The position numbers and the translations under genes were made by a program. A stretch of 64,000 bases of DNA from positions 1-64,000 of the forward strand of contig JAKPQA010000032.1 in assembly GCA_029547025.1 (NCBI GenBank), written 5' to 3'. The DNA is from Armatimonadota bacterium (lineage in GTDB: Bacteria; Armatimonadota; Zipacnadia; UBA1398; JAKPQA01). The notes below the pieces were generated by a model. That model was not told where the DNA came from. It did no database searches and saw only the letters and a list, made by a program, of their open reading frames with translations. This document shows, piece after piece, positions 5,823-13,274 of the stretch; positions within the stretch are counted from its first letter, which is position 1; each line of letters starts with the position of its first letter.

Positions 5823-6188
5823 TCAGGCTCCGGCGGCGAGCTGCGCGGCGATGAAGGCATCGAGCAGTGCCTGCTCGTCGGGCCCGATGCGATCGAAGAA
5901 CAGAGCGATGGCGTGGGTCTGGGCACCGTCGGCGGTGGTCCGGGCATCACATCGGACTACGACTCCGCCGCAGTGGAGCTGGTGGGATTCGGCGGACCCG
6001 CTGGGCACGCAGAGCGTCACCTCGAGGCGGGTGAGCTCGGGGATGGGGCGAGACACCTCGAAGTAGGCGCCACGGCTGCTGATGTTGCGTGTCTGAGCCT
6101 GAAGCTGGCCCTGACCACCGGTGGTGGCCTCGACGGCGACAGGCAGAGCGACTCGGATTCGCGGATGGCGCCGACGTTCGTGCCCCAT
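5823..6188 (-). CDS. PilZ-domain protein, probable c-di-GMP receptor
   Basis: A single PilZ domain of 121 residues. The cyclic-di-GMP binding signature is complete: an arginine-rich N-terminus, ERRRHPRIRVALPV (RxxxR), followed by NISSRGAYFEV (the D/NxSxxG motif). No second domain is attached, so it should act as a diffusible receptor or adaptor. In flagellated bacteria such proteins often affect motility, and motor genes occur later in this window. The frame is open to 6338, but ATG at 6188 is where the domain begins and follows a G-rich ribosome binding site. Confidence 0.88.
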   Translation of the reverse strand: MGHERRRHPRIRVALPVAVEATTGGQGQLQAQTRNISSRGAYFEVSRPIPELTRLEVTLCVPSGSAESHQLHCGGVVVRCDARTTADGAQTHAIALFFDRIGPDEQALLDAFIAAQLAAGA

Positions 6189-6359
6189 GGTGGTGGCCCC
6201 CTTTGAGCTCGGCTGCTCGGGACGCAGTATAGCCCGGCGCGGAAGTCGTGCGAACCCGGGGGATTGGTTCGGGCCGCCAGGAGGGGGCCGTCGGGTGTGG
6301 CGGCGAATACCCGACTGCCGGATGAACCCGCCCTTCACTCTGTCTATGGGAGTTCTGCC

Positions 6360-6848
6360 GTGGCCTTCATGATCCGCATTGACCGCCTCGACGCGAACAT
6401 CGAGGAGATCACCATCGGCGCCTGGCTCAAGGCCGAGGGTGACCCGGTGGCGCTGGGAGAGCCGGTGGTGGAGATCATCACCGACAAGATTACCTTCGAG
6501 TATGAGAGTGAGGCCGAGGGTATTCTACGGAAGATCGTCGCTGCGGAGAAAAGCATAGTCCCTGTTCACTACGTGATCGGGGTTATCGCAGGACCCGACG
6601 AGGACCTGCCCGACTATGAGGCGCGGAACGCGGAGCTCCGGGCGTCGCTGCAGGCGTCATCGGTCTCGGTGGGGGCGTCGCCGGCGGTGCGCGCCGCGCG
6701 CTCCGAGGGAGAGGGCGCCCGGAAGGCTCGGGCGACCCCGGCGGCCCGTCGGCGGGCCCGCGAGCTCGGTGTCGACATCGAGGCGGTTGCCGCCACGGTC
6801 GAGGGCGCGGTGTCCGTCGAGGACGTCGAGCGCTTCGCGGGGCTCTAG
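6360..6848 (+). CDS. Lipoyl-domain plus E3-binding-domain protein without acyltransferase domain
   Basis: The protein resembles the N-terminal half of a 2-oxoacid dehydrogenase E2. Residues about 5-80 form a lipoyl domain: WLKAEGDPVALGEPVVEI is followed by ITDKITFE, where the TDK lysine is the expected lipoylation site. A charged Ala/Ser-rich linker follows. Residues about 122-160 match a peripheral subunit-binding domain (ATPAARRRARELGVDI, then VSVEDVERF). The catalytic CoA-acyltransferase domain is absent and the stop is clean at 162 residues. GTG at 6360 has ggag seven bases upstream; ATG at 6369 is the alternative. It is 15 bases from acpS and heads the ketosynthase set. Its partner enzymes are not in the window. 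Confidence 0.85.
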   Translation: MAFMIRIDRLDANIEEITIGAWLKAEGDPVALGEPVVEIITDKITFEYESEAEGILRKIVAAEKSIVPVHYVIGVIAGPDEDLPDYEARNAELRASLQASSVSVGASPAVRAARSEGEGARKARATPAARRRARELGVDIEAVAATVEGAVSVEDVERFAGL

Positions 6849-6863
6849 CCAGGTGGGAGCGCG

Positions 6864-7247
6864 GTGACGGAGAGACTCGTCGGGGTCGGGGTCGACTTGC
6901 TCGAGATCGAGCGTATTGGCGACCTTATCAGCCGCTATGGCATGGTGTTCCTGCGGAAGGCTCTCACGCCCACGGAGCTTGCCGGGCTGGGCGGCCTCGC
7001 CTCGCAGCCCACGTACACGGCCCGGCTGATCGCGGCGAAGGAGGCCGTGATGAAGGCCCTCGGCACGGGTCTGCGGCGGGGGGCCAGTTGGCGGCAGATC
7101 GAGGTTCGGGATTCGAGTCCGGGGCACTGTTCGGTGCGACTCCTCTCGCCGGCGCACGAGAACCTGCGGATCCACGTGGCCATCTCTCGGCATGGCGACG
7201 TGGTGCTCGCCATGGCGACCATCACGGAACTGGAGGGATCGGCGTGA
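6864..7247 (+). CDS. acpS: Holo-[acyl-carrier-protein] synthase
   Basis: AcpS transfers phosphopantetheine from CoA to a serine of an acyl carrier protein. At 127 residues it has family length. It shows GVDLLEIERI (metal-binding Asp11), the LTPTEL segment, and ARLIAAKEAVMKALGTG (Glu60). It lies in an operon with fabG and two ketosynthase-like genes, which implies that a carrier protein is modified for this pathway, yet no ACP gene lies nearby. The start is GTG at 6864, and the stop overlaps the fabG start as GTGA. Confidence 0.93.
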   Translation: MTERLVGVGVDLLEIERIGDLISRYGMVFLRKALTPTELAGLGGLASQPTYTARLIAAKEAVMKALGTGLRRGASWRQIEVRDSSPGHCSVRLLSPAHENLRIHVAISRHGDVVLAMATITELEGSA

Positions 7248-7993
7248 GTGAGCCGATGCGCCGGGTGGCGCTGGTGACCGGTGGCTCGCAGGGCATTGGC
7301 CGGGCTACGGTGCTGCGCCTGGCCGGGATGGGGTGCGCCATCGCGCTGAACGACATTGCGCACACTCCGGCAACTGACGAGACGCTGGCGGCTCTGTCGG
7401 CTGCTGGCGCGGAGACCGGCGTGTTCATTGCGGACGTGCGGGACGAGACCGCCGTGAGGGCCATGGTTGATGAGATCCGGGCGACGCTGGGGCCCGTGGA
7501 CATTCTGGTAAACAATGCGGGAGTGCTCCGTGACACGTTCATTTCGTTCATGCGAGAGCAGGATTGGGACGACGTGGTGGACACGTCGCTGAAGGGCGCC
7601 TTCTTGTGCACGAAGGCCGTGGTGAGGGACATGGCCCGGCGGAAGTGGGGGCGCATCGTTAACCTGGCATCCGACGCGGGGCGGATGGGCGACGCCATGC
7701 GGGCCAACTACTCGGCGGCCAAGGCGGGCATGATGGGCCTCACGCGGGCGTGTGCCCGCGAGCTTGCGCGGCAGGGGATCACCGTGAATGCGGTGGCTCC
7801 CGGCATCGTGGAGACGCCGATGATCGCGGACCTGAAGGAGCAGCGGCTCGAGCAGTACCGCTCGCTGGTGCCTCTGGGGCGGTTTGGGCGTCCGGACGAG
7901 GTGGCGGCGGTGATCGCCTTCCTGGCGTCGGGGGAGGCCAGCTACATCACTGGGTGCACGCTGTCGGTCGATGGCGGAATGTGCATGTCCTGA
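7244..7993 (+). CDS. fabG: 3-oxoacyl-ACP reductase family SDR (FabG-like)
   Basis: A short-chain dehydrogenase that would reduce a 3-oxoacyl thioester with NADPH. It has 249 residues with TGGSQGIG (cofactor binding), NNAG, and the catalytic Ser143, Tyr156 and Lys160 (LASDAG, then YSAAK). It ends with the usual TGCTLSVDGG. GTG at 7244 is chosen because it overlaps the acpS stop and has ggaggg seven bases upstream. Its place between acpS and two ketosynthase genes points to fatty-acid or polyketide-like chain building, not general sugar or alcohol oxidation. Substrate is not shown by the sequence. Confidence 0.9.
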   Translation: MSEPMRRVALVTGGSQGIGRATVLRLAGMGCAIALNDIAHTPATDETLAALSAAGAETGVFIADVRDETAVRAMVDEIRATLGPVDILVNNAGVLRDTFISFMREQDWDDVVDTSLKGAFLCTKAVVRDMARRKWGRIVNLASDAGRMGDAMRANYSAAKAGMMGLTRACARELARQGITVNAVAPGIVETPMIADLKEQRLEQYRSLVPLGRFGRPDEVAAVIAFLASGEASYITGCTLSVDGGMCMS

Positions 7994-8027
7994 GCCGCTC
8001 TCGGCGGCGATGGCGAACGGGGGCGGA

Positions 8028-9251
8028 ATGCAGCTTCGGCGTGTGGGCATCACGGGTATGGGCGTGGTGAGTTGCCTTGGGGTGGGCGTGGAGGCGTTCG
8101 GCGAGGCCCTCTTTGCGGGGAGGTCCGGACTGTCCGTGATCGATCGCTTCGATCCCGCGGGGCTCCGGAACGGCTTGATGGGGGTGGTTCGCGACGTCCC
8201 TCCCCTACCCGACTGGGCTCCTGGAGGGACGTCGTCGCGGGACGTGGTCTATGCGTTTTCGGCGGCGGATGAGGCGCTTCGATCGGCGGGCCTGGTCCCG
8301 CCGTTGTCGGAGCCGCGGACGGGCTGTGTGCTGTCCACCAACTTTGCTGGGGCTGAGGCCATGACGCGTTTCGCCGAATGCCCGGAGGACGGTTCAGCCT
8401 TTGCGGCGTGCCGGTTCGACACGGTGGTGAGGGGTCTCGCGTCGGCGCTATCGATGCGGGGCCCGGCGTTCTGCGTGTCGGTCTCATGCGCGTCCGGCAC
8501 GGCCGCCATCGGGCTCGGGAGCGACCTGGTGCGAACGGGCCGGGCCCGGCGGGTGCTGGCAGGTGGGTACGATGTGCTCGCCCTTCTCACCCAGGCTGGG
8601 CTGTCGTGCATCCGGACGATCTCGACCGACACGGTGCGGCCCTTTGATGTGAACCGCAGCCAGACGATCTTCGGCGAAGGCGCGGCGATGGTTGTTCTCG
8701 AGGATCTGGAGGATGCGCGTGCGCGCGGTGCACCCGTGCGCGCGGAAGTGCTTGGGCACGGCATGAACAACAACGCACACCATCTGACGGCGCCCGACAA
8801 GGAGGGCGAGGGTATCGCGGCCGGCATGCGGATGGCGTTTGAGGACGCGGGCATCGATCCGGCCGAGGTGGATTACGTGAACGCCCACGGCACGGGCACC
8901 GAGTACCACGATGTGACCGAGGTGAAGGCCCTGAAGGCCGTGCTGGGCGCGCGGGCCCGGGAGATCCCGGTGAGCTCGACGAAGGCGGCGACCGCGCACT
9001 CGATGGGCGCGGCGGGATCGATGGAACTGGTGGCTTCGGTGCTCGCGATCGAGCGGAACATGGCCCCCCCCACGCTGAACCTGACGGATCCGGACCCGGA
9101 GTGCGACCTCGACCACGTACCGGGGGTCGGCAAGCCCTTCGCCATCGACGTGGTGCTCTCGAACTCGGCGGGGATCGGAGGCGGGAACGCCTCGATCGTC
9201 ATCGCCCGACCCGGGTGGCGCGACGCACGGACGGGCGGTGGGCGGGCGTGA
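8028..9251 (+). CDS. Beta-ketoacyl synthase, catalytically complete (FabF/KS-alpha-like)
   Basis: A condensing enzyme of 407 residues with the full Cys-His-His triad: Cys154 in VSCASGT, His287 in NAHGTGT and His324 in ATAHSMGAAG, plus the C-terminal SNSAGIGGGNASI glycine-rich segment. It should extend an acyl chain carried on ACP. ATG at 8028 (MQLRRVGITGMG) is preferred because of the G-rich ribosome binding site; ATG at 8010 is possible. The stop overlaps the next gene, an inactive homologue, as GTGA. That pairing resembles the KS-alpha/KS-beta (chain-length factor) heterodimers of type II polyketide and aryl-polyene systems. Sequence alone does not tell FabF housekeeping from specialised use. 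Confidence 0.9.
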   Translation: MQLRRVGITGMGVVSCLGVGVEAFGEALFAGRSGLSVIDRFDPAGLRNGLMGVVRDVPPLPDWAPGGTSSRDVVYAFSAADEALRSAGLVPPLSEPRTGCVLSTNFAGAEAMTRFAECPEDGSAFAACRFDTVVRGLASALSMRGPAFCVSVSCASGTAAIGLGSDLVRTGRARRVLAGGYDVLALLTQAGLSCIRTISTDTVRPFDVNRSQTIFGEGAAMVVLEDLEDARARGAPVRAEVLGHGMNNNAHHLTAPDKEGEGIAAGMRMAFEDAGIDPAEVDYVNAHGTGTEYHDVTEVKALKAVLGARAREIPVSSTKAATAHSMGAAGSMELVASVLAIERNMAPPTLNLTDPDPECDLDHVPGVGKPFAIDVVLSNSAGIGGGNASIVIARPGWRDARTGGGRA

Positions 9252-10327
9252 GCGAGCTATGGGTCACGGGTCTGGGTCCTGTGACGCCCATCGGGTCGGG
9301 GCTGGACGAACTCACGGCGGCTTGGGCGGGGCGCGAGTCCGGGCTTTCCGTGCCGGGAGAGGACGGTCCGCTGGCGGGCATCGAGGCGAGTGCCGTCGCC
9401 GAGGTGGGCGAGGTGCCCGAGTTCGACGTGGCCGATTACCTCGAGAGCGAGAAGACCTACCTGGACCGGTCGGCTGCGCTGCTGCTGGCTGGGAGCGCTG
9501 TTGCGAGGTCACATGCGCAGCTGACGATCAGCGAGGGCAACCGCCTGCGTGTTGGCGTGTGCGCCGGTTCGGCCTACGGGCCGCTGGCCAGCCAGGACCT
9601 GTTCAACCAGCGTGTTCTCGCCAAGGGGGCGCGGCTGGCCAACCCTCTGATCTTCGGCCACACGTACATCAACACGGCCGCGAGTCTGGTGGCGATCGAG
9701 TGGGGCCTGATGGGTTTCAACGAGGTGGTCTCGTGCGGGCTCGTCTCGGGGATGACCGCGATCGTGCAGGCCGCCGACGCGTTGCGACTGGGGCGGGCTG
9801 ATGCCTTGCTGTGCGGCGGAGCGGACGCGCTGAGCGTGCCACTCGTGCTCGGCTTGGCGGCGGAGGGCCGACTGGCGGTCGACGGCGGTGTGGGGCTGCG
9901 GCCGGCCGAGGGTGCGGGGGTGGTCGTGCTGGAGACGTCCGACTCCGCGTCGGCGCGCGGAGCCGACCCCGTTGGGTACCTGGAGGGCTCGGCCCTCGGG
10001 TATGGTGACGCCGCCGGCGATGCCCTGTGCGACGTGGTCTCCCAGACGCTGGAAGAGGCGGCGGCCAGGGCTTCGGACATCGATCTCGTGGTCGGTTGCG
10101 CCAACGGCGTCCCTGCAGTGGATGAAGCTGAGGCTGCTGTGGTCGATTGCTTCGGCTGGGCGGCGAGGCTGTGCTCGCCGAAGCGCTTGACGGGGGAGAC
10201 GTTCGGGGCGGCCGATGGCATCGGCGTGGCCATCGCGCTGCTGGCTCTTGAGGCGGACGGTCGGGCGGTTGTCTTGTCTTGCGACTGGTCGGGCGCGTGC
10301 GGGGCTCTTGTGGTCCGTCGCCGGTAG
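9248..10327 (+). CDS. Ketosynthase homologue lacking all catalytic residues (KS-beta/chain-length-factor-like)
   Basis: At 359 residues it is shorter than the adjacent synthase but has the same thiolase fold pattern. It begins SELWVTGLGPVTPIGSG and has VVSCGLVSG where an active synthase has a VSxxCSSG-type motif, so Leu165 replaces the nucleophile. The NAHGTGT position reads VGCANGVPA and the second histidine position reads RLTGETFGAADG, so both histidines are also gone. The frame is intact. GTG at 9248 overlaps the previous stop. In type II polyketide synthases an inactive partner of this kind pairs with the active synthase and sets chain length. That role is inferred from position and residue loss. 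Confidence 0.85.
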   Translation: MSELWVTGLGPVTPIGSGLDELTAAWAGRESGLSVPGEDGPLAGIEASAVAEVGEVPEFDVADYLESEKTYLDRSAALLLAGSAVARSHAQLTISEGNRLRVGVCAGSAYGPLASQDLFNQRVLAKGARLANPLIFGHTYINTAASLVAIEWGLMGFNEVVSCGLVSGMTAIVQAADALRLGRADALLCGGADALSVPLVLGLAAEGRLAVDGGVGLRPAEGAGVVVLETSDSASARGADPVGYLEGSALGYGDAAGDALCDVVSQTLEEAAARASDIDLVVGCANGVPAVDEAEAAVVDCFGWAARLCSPKRLTGETFGAADGIGVAIALLALEADGRAVVLSCDWSGACGALVVRRR

Positions 10328-10429
10328 GTGGACAGCAGGGGACTCGCCATTGGGAACACTGAAGGCTATGGCGGCGCGATGTGGTGGGTGCGCCGCCGCG
10401 GAGTCGCGGGATCTGGGAGGAGTTCATCG

Positions 10430-11326
10430 ATGAATCGACGGGAGTTCCTGGGGGCTTCAGCGGGCGCCCTCGCGGGTATCGGGCTGGGCGCGGGCCTTAC
10501 CGCTCAGGCGGAGGCGGCTGCGGCAGGTTACACGCTACCAGCCGGGCGCCGCAAGTGGCGCAAGGCCATGGTGGCGGGCATGCTGCCGGGTGACATGAGT
10601 CTTGACGAGCGTTTTGGTCTGGCCAAGCGTGCGGGTTTCGATGGCATTGAGGTACCGCCCATGAGTGAGGCCGAGGCTGCGGAGAACCGGGAGGCGGCGG
10701 AGCGGAACGGTCTGCGCATTCACTCGGTGATCTATGGTGGATGGGGGGCGCCGTTATCGTCGGGTGACGACGCGGTGGTGACTCAAGGCCTCAAGGAGGT
10801 CGAGGGGGCGCTTCGCGCGGCGAGAGTGCTGCGCGCGGACGCGGTCCTCCTGGTCCCCGCGGTGGTCAATGAGGGCACGAGCTACCCGGATGCGTATGAG
10901 CGGTCGCAGCGGAACATCCGCAAGTTGGTGCCGCTGGCCAAGGAGTTGGGTGTGGTCATCGGCATCGAGAACGTCTGGAACAACTTCCTGCTGAGTCCGG
11001 TGGAGTTCGCCCGGTACGTGGACGAGTTTGAGAGCCCGCATGTCCGGGCGTACTTGGACCTGGGTAACATGGTCAAGTTCGGCTGGCCGGAACACTGGGT
11101 GCAGGCTTTGGGCCCGCGCATCGCCAAGGTGCACCTGAAGGACTTCCGCCGTGAGGGGAACCAGTTCGTGAACCTACGCGAGGGCGACGTGAACTGGCCG
11201 TTGGTGACGGACTGGCTGGTTCGCGTGGGGTATGAGGGCTGGTTCACCACCGAGCTCGGTGGCGGCGACGAGGCCTACCTCAAGGATGTGGCTGACCGCG
11301 TCGACGCGATCTTCGCTGGCAAGTAG
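10430..11326 (+). CDS. Sugar phosphate isomerase/epimerase-like TIM barrel with Tat leader
   Basis: A 298-residue member of the xylose-isomerase-like/AP-endonuclease-2 superfamily. The leader MNRREFLGASAGALAG carries a twin-arginine motif, and an AEAAAA stretch is a likely cleavage region. The barrel follows, with metal-binding candidates in GIENVWNN, YLDLGNM, KVHLKDF and TELGGG. Exported members are known in polysaccharide-degrading bacteria, but the substrate cannot be read from the sequence. The frame is open further upstream; ATG at 10430 has gggagg nine bases ahead and starts exactly at the leader. It lies 102 bases after the ketosynthase set and may be a separate transcript. Confidence 0.85.
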   Translation: MNRREFLGASAGALAGIGLGAGLTAQAEAAAAGYTLPAGRRKWRKAMVAGMLPGDMSLDERFGLAKRAGFDGIEVPPMSEAEAAENREAAERNGLRIHSVIYGGWGAPLSSGDDAVVTQGLKEVEGALRAARVLRADAVLLVPAVVNEGTSYPDAYERSQRNIRKLVPLAKELGVVIGIENVWNNFLLSPVEFARYVDEFESPHVRAYLDLGNMVKFGWPEHWVQALGPRIAKVHLKDFRREGNQFVNLREGDVNWPLVTDWLVRVGYEGWFTTELGGGDEAYLKDVADRVDAIFAGK

Positions 11327-12174: not shown

Positions 12175-12332
12175 TCGATCCCCCTCGGAGTGCCGTCTGA
12201 AGCTTCTCCACAATCGTAGACGACCGGACGCTGGCGTGGGTTGGGTCGGAGGATCAGAAGCCGGGCACCGGGAACAGCCAGATGGATGCCGAGGCCAGTC
12301 AGGCCGGCATGCGGATAGGGAGTTCGTGCCCG

Positions 12333-13274
12333 ATGGATCGGAAGTTGACGCGACGCGAGATGATGGCTGTTGGGGCCCTCGGGATCGCGGGGGTGGCGGC
12401 TCGTGGCGGCGCGGTGTCTGAGGGGGATGGCCGTCGAAAGGCCATGTCACTCAGTCTGAACTCGAGTGTCATCCGGCCGACGCCGCTCGAACGCAAAGTG
12501 CGTATCGCGGCCGAGATGGGCTATGACGGCATCGAACTGTGGGATGAGGAGCTCGAACGGTACCAGGGCGAGGGGCACTCGCTGACCGATCTGGGCCACC
12601 GAATCCGGGATCTGGGGCTGTTCGTGCCCAACATCATTGGGTTGTGGGACTGCATGCCGCCCGAGGAATCACAGCGGGCCAGCGCGGTGGAGGTGGCCAA
12701 GCGGCGGATGGAGCGCGGCGTCGCCGTAGGGGCGCGGTGCATCGCGGCGATCCCCGCGCCGGATCGGGAGGACATCGGCATCGAGTGGGCCGCGGAGCGC
12801 TATCGCGAGCTGCTCGAGGTGGGCCGGGAGATGGGGATTCGGGTCGCCGTGGAGTTTGTCGGCTTCCTGCGCGGAGTGCACCGCCTCGGCATGGCTACTG
12901 CCATCGCCATCGAGGCGGATGATCCCGACGCATGCCTGGTGTGCGATACGTTCCACCTGTACCGAGGCGGATCGGGTTTCCGCGGCATCAGGCAGCTGCG
13001 CGGGTCATTCCTTGCCGTATGCCACTTCAACGACGTGCCGGCATTTCCACCGCAGGAGCGGCTTGCGGATTCCGACCGCATTATGCCGGGAGACGGCATC
13101 CTCCCTCTGGTGCGGTTCGTCCGCGACCTGTGGGACATCGGTTTCACGGGGCCGCTGTCGCTCGAGACGTTCCATCGCGAGCACTGGTCCCGGGATCCAC
13201 GCAGCGTGGCGCGCGAAGGTATTCGCAAGGTTCGGGCGGTCCTGGACGCGGCGCGCGCCGACGGACATGCATGA
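12333..13274 (+). CDS. Second sugar isomerase/epimerase-like TIM barrel with Tat-like leader
   Basis: A 313-residue protein of the same superfamily as the gene at 10430. The leader MDRKLTRREMMAVGALGIAG has a twin-arginine pair and a hydrophobic core. The barrel shows AEMGYDGIELWDEE near the start and likely metal ligands in VAVEFVGF, VCDTFHLY, CHFNDV and LSLETFH. Sequence divergence from the first copy is large, so they are not a recent duplication. ATG at 12333 is chosen because the leader begins there; an upstream ATG at 12309 is possible. The 158 bases between this gene and the divergent sigma gene should hold both promoters, but no clear box was recognised. Confidence 0.85.
   Translation: MDRKLTRREMMAVGALGIAGVAARGGAVSEGDGRRKAMSLSLNSSVIRPTPLERKVRIAAEMGYDGIELWDEELERYQGEGHSLTDLGHRIRDLGLFVPNIIGLWDCMPPEESQRASAVEVAKRRMERGVAVGARCIAAIPAPDREDIGIEWAAERYRELLEVGREMGIRVAVEFVGFLRGVHRLGMATAIAIEADDPDACLVCDTFHLYRGGSGFRGIRQLRGSFLAVCHFNDVPAFPPQERLADSDRIMPGDGILPLVRFVRDLWDIGFTGPLSLETFHREHWSRDPRSVAREGIRKVRAVLDAARADGHA

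Follow-up and report, generated by a model that had tools for sequence, protein, structure and literature searches.

A 64,000-nucleotide stretch of Armatimonadota DNA (the window) carries, at positions 6360–10327, five plus-strand genes that encode a lipoyl protein (LIP), AcpS, FabG, a ketosynthase (KS) and a chain-length-factor-like partner (CLF). What does a lipoyl carrier do at the head of a chain-building gene set? We read the locus as the first half of a conserved pathway that would assemble acyl groups for a surface glycan, passing them from E1 and LIP to KS–CLF and on to a dedicated ACP. Judging from sequence comparisons, we give this reading a probability of roughly 0.55.

Composition of the five-gene locus

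LIP (positions 6360–6848) combines a stand-alone lipoyl domain (residues ~1–80; Biotin_lipoyl, 33.1 bits) with an E3/E1-binding PSBD (residues ~125–160; E3_binding, 31.8 bits). Pfam found no 2-oxoacid_dh domain (PF00198) in the protein, in agreement with the preliminary description, which took the leading gene for the carrier half of an E2 without its transferase. The AlphaFold model (mean pLDDT 89.6) has two confident domains and a low-confidence linker between them. The start codon is a GTG at 6360, with an alternative ATG possible at 6369. Lys43, the predicted lipoylation site in an ITDK motif (codon 6486–6488), is invariant in 29 of 29 aligned LIP proteins, all of which also retain the PSBD. 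The window's own genome (G000) encodes LipA and, outside the cluster, a lipoamide-dehydrogenase-like protein (G000:C2:29900) whose full-length match scores 323.8 bits against an NCBIfam cut-off of 408.8; no E3 gene was recognised within LIP clusters.

AcpS (6864–7247; PF01648, 56.7 bits; TIGR00516, 69.5 bits, above the 59.8 cut-off) is the second 4′-phosphopantetheinyl transferase of the genome, which has another AcpS-family gene at G000:C288. It is followed by a FabG-type 3-oxoacyl-ACP reductase (7244–7993; adh_short_C2, 214 bits). KS (8010–9251) and CLF (9248–10327) each contain the N- and C-terminal ketoacyl-synt domains. By Pfam, alignment and tree, KS is a FabF-type ketosynthase with an intact Cys-His-Lys-His set (Cys160, codon 8487–8489; His293, Lys325 and His330); the active-site Cys, like the rest of the triad and the Lys, is conserved in 35 of 35 relatives. 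In CLF, Leu165 (codon 9740–9742) occupies the position of the active Cys and both His residues are lost, and other residues replace this Cys in 33 of 33 relatives. The CLF model has a ketosynthase fold (pLDDT 93.5, TM 0.92 to FabF), and the protein is a putative heterodimer partner of KS. In the tree, KS groups with relatives that come from three phyla (SH-aLRT 99) and CLF forms its own clade (SH-aLRT 100), both separate from the FabF of the same genome.

Pfam and residue checks thus identified every member of the set as initially proposed, the active and inactive ketosynthases included. The genes are tightly packed, with spacings of +15, −4 (GTGA), +16 and −4 (GTGA) from LIP to CLF; the reported 15-base gap stands, and the three reported GTGA overlaps become two, alongside two gaps of 15–16 bases. 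Inspection by eye of the 20 kb of flanking sequence revealed no recognisable dehydratase, ligase, thioesterase or ACP, and a search of the entire window found no homologue of E1 or ACP.

A larger cluster in three phyla

We surveyed 61 Armatimonadota genomes. LIP, CLF, a distinct PDH-type E1β and a dedicated ACP are present together in 35 and all absent from 18; the remaining 8 have a partial set, with gaps mostly at contig ends. Relatives carry the genes as a single run of LIP, in some cases AcpS, FabG, KS, CLF, E1α, E1β, GT2, ACP, two hydrolases, glycosyltransferases and a flippase. The order LIP–FabG–KS–CLF–E1α–E1β–GT2–ACP–HYD2–HYD1 recurs as single runs in several Armatimonadota families, and its first part, LIP to E1β, is also found in one Planctomycetota MAG and one Lentisphaerales MAG. 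We recognised AcpS at few of the loci; in one of these, L189, it has the same position as in the window. The flippase is of the MurJ type and is encoded with further glycosyltransferases, and the two hydrolases are of the α/β type, related to exosortase-A-associated hydrolases 1 and 2. The five genes do not stand alone: they form the first half of a longer cluster, which continues with glycosyltransferases, hydrolases and a flippase. Its order is kept across one phylum and extends to two others, well beyond the window, and LIP does not sit in an ordinary E1/E2/E3 operon.

The preliminary description had also raised the possibility of distant ACP and E1 genes. Both are co-inherited with LIP and CLF, and G000 has its own copies on other contigs, with TPP-enzyme domains in both E1 subunits: E1α on C131 (E1_dh, 275.5 bits), and E1β on C137 (Transket_pyr, 146.7 bits; Transketolase_C, 127.8 bits) beside the dedicated ACP, which bears a GIDSV motif. 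The lack of a carrier protein therefore holds for the window and not for the genome, and neither a system without ACP nor one without E1 can be maintained. All 30 of the 30 CLF-adjacent E1α proteins fall in one clade (SH-aLRT 99), and the C131 protein lies inside it; the orthologous E1β, separable by score, occurs with LIP and CLF, the C137 copy included. E1α is nearest to PDH E1α, at a score below the cut-off for that subfamily, and the E1β of locus L152 exceeds the PDH E1β cut-off. Orthologues of the dedicated ACP adjoin KS and E1 genes in relatives. Because the parts of the pathway lie on three contigs in G000, their joint function there is deduced from these relatives.

Could these simply be duplicate fatty-acid genes that became neighbours by chance? 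Every family but LIP is common, as this would have it, but the idea is scarcely credible: a fatty acid synthase (FAS) locus with FabH, FabF, FabG and ACP exists elsewhere in G000 (C176), the KS and CLF clades stand apart from the genome's own FabF, the arrangement is conserved over three phyla, and LIP and ACP co-occur in the 61 genomes with a Fisher p of about 1e-12, a value not corrected for genome relatedness. A role for the set as a FabH replacement was ruled out because FabH occurs in 59 of the 61 genomes, and nearly every LIP-bearing genome is among them. It is also highly improbable that LIP acts as a redox carrier, or in some other lipoyl role of the H-protein or LbpA kind, serving E1 as an electron acceptor only and donating no acyl group. 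Some stand-alone lipoyl proteins do have other roles, for example LbpA (PMC6067878), but LIP has a PSBD, and conserved PDH-type E1α and E1β travel with it.

A proposed route from 2-oxoacid to glycan

In the pathway that we propose, E1 would dock on the binding domain of LIP and decarboxylate a short 2-oxoacid, for which pyruvate is the likeliest candidate. It would thereby reductively acylate the lipoyl group on Lys43, probably with an acetyl group. In the KS–CLF pair, the active Cys of KS would then accept the acyl group from the dihydrolipoyl thioester, a step that would replace the E2-catalysed transfer to CoA. KS–CLF would carry out one condensation with malonyl bound to the dedicated ACP, a carrier that the extra AcpS may supply with its phosphopantetheine arm. 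Reduction by FabG would give a 3-hydroxyacyl-ACP, which with pyruvate as the substrate would be 3-hydroxybutyryl-ACP. LIP could be re-oxidised by a lipoamide dehydrogenase encoded elsewhere, and the hydrolase-fold proteins or glycosyltransferases may move the acyl group onto the glycan.

The preliminary description had suggested, as one of two options, that a starter derived from a 2-oxoacid is brought in by the lipoyl arm. In relatives LIP lies beside E1 without E2, which fits such delivery; the hand-over itself, from lipoyl to KS, is a step that we infer. The more specific proposal, that a truncated 2-oxoacid dehydrogenase uses its lipoyl arm to acylate the ketosynthase-pair Cys directly, by-passing CoA and E2, in at least three phyla and for a hydroxyacyl group on a surface glycan, we hold tentatively, at a little short of even odds. 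We know of no precedent for lipoyl-to-ketosynthase transfer. Open-access literature on lipoyl domains or PSBDs combined with ketosynthases or CLFs yielded nothing relevant and no description of this system, and a paper on the Zipacnadia/Armatimonadota class leaves ketosynthases and polyketides unmentioned (PMC10290634).

The main rival to direct transfer is a split 2-oxoacid dehydrogenase, in which LIP, E1 and a separate E2 core make acyl-CoA, and the KS pair uses this or a derived acyl-ACP. LIP has the ordinary lipoyl-plus-PSBD layout, and most genomes of the class, G000 included, carry an ORF of ~235–290 amino acids that is a 2-oxoacid_dh domain alone and could use LIP. However, the G000 core (C189, 244 amino acids) lies close to a fused E1 of its own, distinct from the LIP-clade E1, and cores also occur in the LIP-less genomes G008, G011, G018 and G029. 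The LIP runs examined, the Planctomycetota and Lentisphaerales loci included, yielded no E2, and G054, which is 96% complete and has LIP, KS, CLF, E1 and ACP, gave no PF00198 match at all. We regard a split dehydrogenase as unlikely.

Type II polyketide synthase (PKS) KS–CLF pairs can self-prime by decarboxylation of malonyl-ACP. KS–CLF here might do so to make one acyl group, with E1 and LIP making a second, acetyl-type group that hydrolase-fold proteins pass directly to ACP or sugar. ACP, HYD2 and HYD1 do lie near E1β in the latter half of the cluster, and KS–CLF and E1β are on different contigs in several genomes. Such parallel acylation is distinctly unlikely, given that E1α nearly always adjoins CLF and not the hydrolases or ACP, and that KS has LIP and FabG nearby.

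Relation to known systems and implications

The proposed direct-transfer route shares PDH-type E1α and E1β, a lipoyl domain and a PSBD with the pyruvate dehydrogenase complex, but no E2 acyltransferase is fused to or beside LIP and a ketosynthase pair takes its place. Unlike type II fatty acid synthase, the window set is without FabD, FabH, FabZ, FabI and ACP. With type II PKS systems (actinorhodin 1TQY, ishigamide 6KXD and AntDE 6SMO) the pathway has in common an intact KS triad, a CLF that has lost its Cys, overlapping genes, the ketosynthase fold and a dedicated ACP (on C137 in G000 and in relatives). It differs from aromatic and highly reducing type II PKSs in its single FabG and its E1–lipoyl loading module, and no dehydratase or cyclase was recognised. 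The best relative in a profile search with CLF was PDB 9S5H, in which two KS chains are paired; its chain C and FabF both lie closer to CLF than do 1TQY, 6KXD and 6SMO.

The acyl side, KS–CLF with E1 and LIP, also differs from the acyl genes of exosortase-A (PEP-CTERM) EPS loci. Those loci resemble the cluster in having two α/β hydrolases (TIGR03100 and TIGR03101) beside ACP and glycosyltransferases, although both hydrolases here score below the corresponding cut-offs.

The cispentacin/coronafacic acid system (amcB–amcF–amcG–amcH) uses an AmcF–AmcG heterodimer for one C2 extension of a 2-oxoacid-derived starter, and its adenylating enzyme AmcH loads 2-oxoglutarate that is kept intact (PMC10698177). 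A dedicated ACP (nearest NCBIfam model AmcB), an active KS with a degenerate partner and, as proposed here, one round of C2 extension on a starter that comes from a 2-oxoacid are shared features. Scores of 233.8 of 325 for AmcF and 56.4 of 80 for AmcB are both under the curated cut-offs, and CLF gave no AmcG match in NCBIfam, which may hold no AmcG model, even at an E value of 10. E1α, E1β and the lipoyl carrier stand in place of AmcH, the runs that we examined showed no recognisable adenylating gene, and the surroundings are those of a surface-glycan cluster. Membership of the cispentacin family was ruled out on AmcG and AmcH.

In little-known environmental bacteria, half a PDH-like machine, consisting of the decarboxylating component and its swinging lipoyl arm but not the usual transferase, is inherited jointly with a small set of chain-building genes and with genes for sugar transfer. 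This suggests that acyl groups are loaded onto a cell-surface sugar chain in a way not yet described. To our knowledge, the priming of ACP chains in known systems draws on CoA thioesters, on adenylates or on the decarboxylation of malonyl. If correct, direct transfer would be a new way to prime chains built on ACPs, joining the lipoyl and phosphopantetheine swinging-arm systems in one reaction and sparing one CoA step. Uncultured Armatimonadota conserve this compact gene set, MAGs of Planctomycetota and Lentisphaerales have it too, and at about seven small proteins the system is within reach of reconstitution. For Armatimonadota, a poorly known phylum in which this glycan cluster is common, our proposal offers a first hypothesis of how its acyl group may be assembled.

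The five genes of the window

Five plus-strand genes occupy 6360-10327, with gaps between neighbours of +15, -4, +16 and -4. Pfam and NCBIfam identified a protein with lipoyl and E3-binding (PSBD) domains and without an acyltransferase domain (LIP); AcpS; FabG; and two ketosynthases, one intact (KS) and one degenerate (CLF). The KS retains Cys160, His293, Lys325 and His330, whereas the CLF has Leu in place of the active Cys and has lost both histidines. The CLF is modelled by AlphaFold as a confident ketosynthase fold (pLDDT 93.5; TM 0.92 to FabF), and LIP as two confident domains with a loose linker between them (pLDDT 89.6). The lipoyl Lys was present in 29 out of 29 LIP sequences. In the PDB, the CLF profile was closest to the recently solved KS-like pair in 9S5H (chains B and C); the aligned active position of chain C also has no Cys.

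Immediately upstream of LIP, a divergent gene (5823-6338, minus strand) encodes a small protein that appears PilZ-like by eye. It could tie the gene set to c-di-GMP control of surface polysaccharide; it was not seen as a conserved neighbour in the relatives' loci. Two signal-bearing proteins encoded after the cluster (10328-11326 and 12282-13274, plus strand) resemble sugar-phosphate isomerase/epimerases by eye, and these genes are not conserved neighbours in relatives either.

Gene order and co-occurrence in relatives

A relatives-level search found LIP in 40 out of 61 Armatimonadota genomes, adjoined by FabG and KS homologues in most small loci. Loci of up to 20 kb resolved the neighbourhood into two modules: LIP-(AcpS)-FabG-KS-CLF-E1alpha, and E1beta-GT2-ACP-hydrolase 2-hydrolase 1-glycosyltransferases-MurJ-type flippase (Pfam MurJ match, 218 bits), in which GT2 is a glycosyltransferase. 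Both are joined as a single run in G004, G005, G038 and G039. With all five genes identified and their order kept in relatives, the five-gene observation of the preliminary description is confirmed, and more strongly than sequence alone could show.

A scan of GTDB genomes (84,980 species) placed the group in Armatimonadota (Zipacnadia / WS1 and relatives). Locus L189 reads LIP-AcpS-FabG-KS-CLF-E1alpha-E1beta-GT2-ACP, with one more gene, of the alpha/beta-hydrolase fold, inserted between FabG and KS. Two MAGs, one Planctomycetota (L193) and one Lentisphaerales (L206), carry LIP-FabG-KS-CLF-E1alpha-E1beta, and LIP-KS-CLF with GT2 occurs in a Brocadiaceae MAG (L198); the phylum of these loci is given as labelled in the records, because they are binned MAG contigs. 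In one relative, both exosortase-A-type hydrolases are fused into one 588 aa ORF (L166:11225-12991). In two distant relatives, FabG is followed by a large secreted-looking protein (L189:11703-13826 and L048:11718-13934), with an S9/esterase-like domain in L189 and a counterpart similar by eye in L048.

Scoring LIP, CLF, E1beta and ACP with cut-offs chosen by eye at visible gaps, we found all four together in 35 of the 61 genomes, none in 18 and a partial set in 8. The cluster runs into a contig end in G012, G020, G022, G023 and G030, the G043 genome is 59% complete, and G031 may be a similar case. The only clear exception is G018, which has the dedicated ACP (G018:C147:14449-14703) and for which no LIP, CLF or E1beta orthologue was shown. 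Family f8 includes genomes with the whole set and others with none, so the pattern does not reduce to a single split separating two lineages. Uncorrected for relatedness among genomes, the Fisher values were about 1e-10 to 1e-13.

Partner genes and the E2 question

The set had been described as lacking a carrier protein; however, genes for one and for an E1 lie elsewhere in the same genome (G000), in which the window is on contig C284. A single E1alpha clade (SH-aLRT 99) takes in all 30 CLF-adjacent E1alpha sequences, and its G000 member (L158:7630-8637) stands by itself on C131. C137 carries the E1beta orthologue, which matches the L152 query at 439 bits with 64% identity; genomes lacking all four markers score 358 bits at most. 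This E1beta adjoins a dedicated ACP of 88 aa with a GIDSV motif (L167:8149-8415), followed by two hydrolase-fold and three glycosyltransferase-like genes. The two hydrolases of the cluster resemble exosortase-A-associated hydrolases 2 and 1, with scores under the cut-off. G000 also encodes two AcpS-family proteins, LipA, a lipoamide-dehydrogenase-like protein scoring below the cut-off and, on C176, an ordinary FAS locus with FabH, FabF, FabG and ACP.

LIP might instead be served by a separate E2 catalytic core, and most members of the class do have a short ORF encoding such a core alone; that of G000 (C189; L068:9499-10233, minus strand) is 244 aa, has no lipoyl or binding domain and lies near a fused E1 of ~800 aa. 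This split-E2 explanation keeps some probability but is weakened by the presence of the core in genomes without LIP (G008, G011, G018 and G029). Moreover, none of the matches to the E2 acyltransferase domain (PF00198) in the 61 genomes falls inside a LIP cluster, and G054 (96% complete) has no match at all, yet carries LIP, KS, CLF, the E1 pair and ACP. We classify the pathway as type II PKS-like acyl assembly whose 2-oxoacid loading module is new and has no E2.

Proposed loading and extension

PDH-type E1 enzymes reductively acylate a lipoyl domain; FabF-type ketosynthases accept acyl groups from carrier thioesters and condense them with malonyl-ACP, the ACP being activated by AcpS and the 3-oxo group reduced by FabG. 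With parts, order, co-inheritance and catalytic residues established at the sequence level, we propose that the acyl group would pass directly from LIP to KS-CLF. The E1 substrate is probably pyruvate, because the L152 E1beta scores above the PDH E1beta subfamily cut-off and E1alpha is nearest to PDH E1alpha, although it scores below the PDH E1alpha cut-off. A single chain extension seems likely, as the examined runs showed neither a recognisable dehydratase nor an enoyl reductase. The product, 3-hydroxybutyryl given pyruvate and one extension, would then acylate a surface glycan. The initial idea of a lipoyl arm serving a minimal chain-building set pointed in the right direction, but took one half of a larger pathway, linked to glycans, for the whole.

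Among described systems, the closest is cispentacin/coronafacic acid biosynthesis, in which the adenylating enzyme AmcH loads a 2-oxoglutaryl starter and AmcF-AmcG extends it by a single C2 unit on AmcB (PMC10698177). The ACP and KS described here resemble AmcB and AmcF, both below curated cut-offs; by contrast, the KS partner gives no AmcG match, and E1 and LIP take the place of AmcH as the loader. None of the open-access full texts searched describes a ketosynthase that is fed by a lipoyl or PSBD protein. Direct lipoyl-to-ketosynthase transfer, if true, would constitute a new kind of priming.
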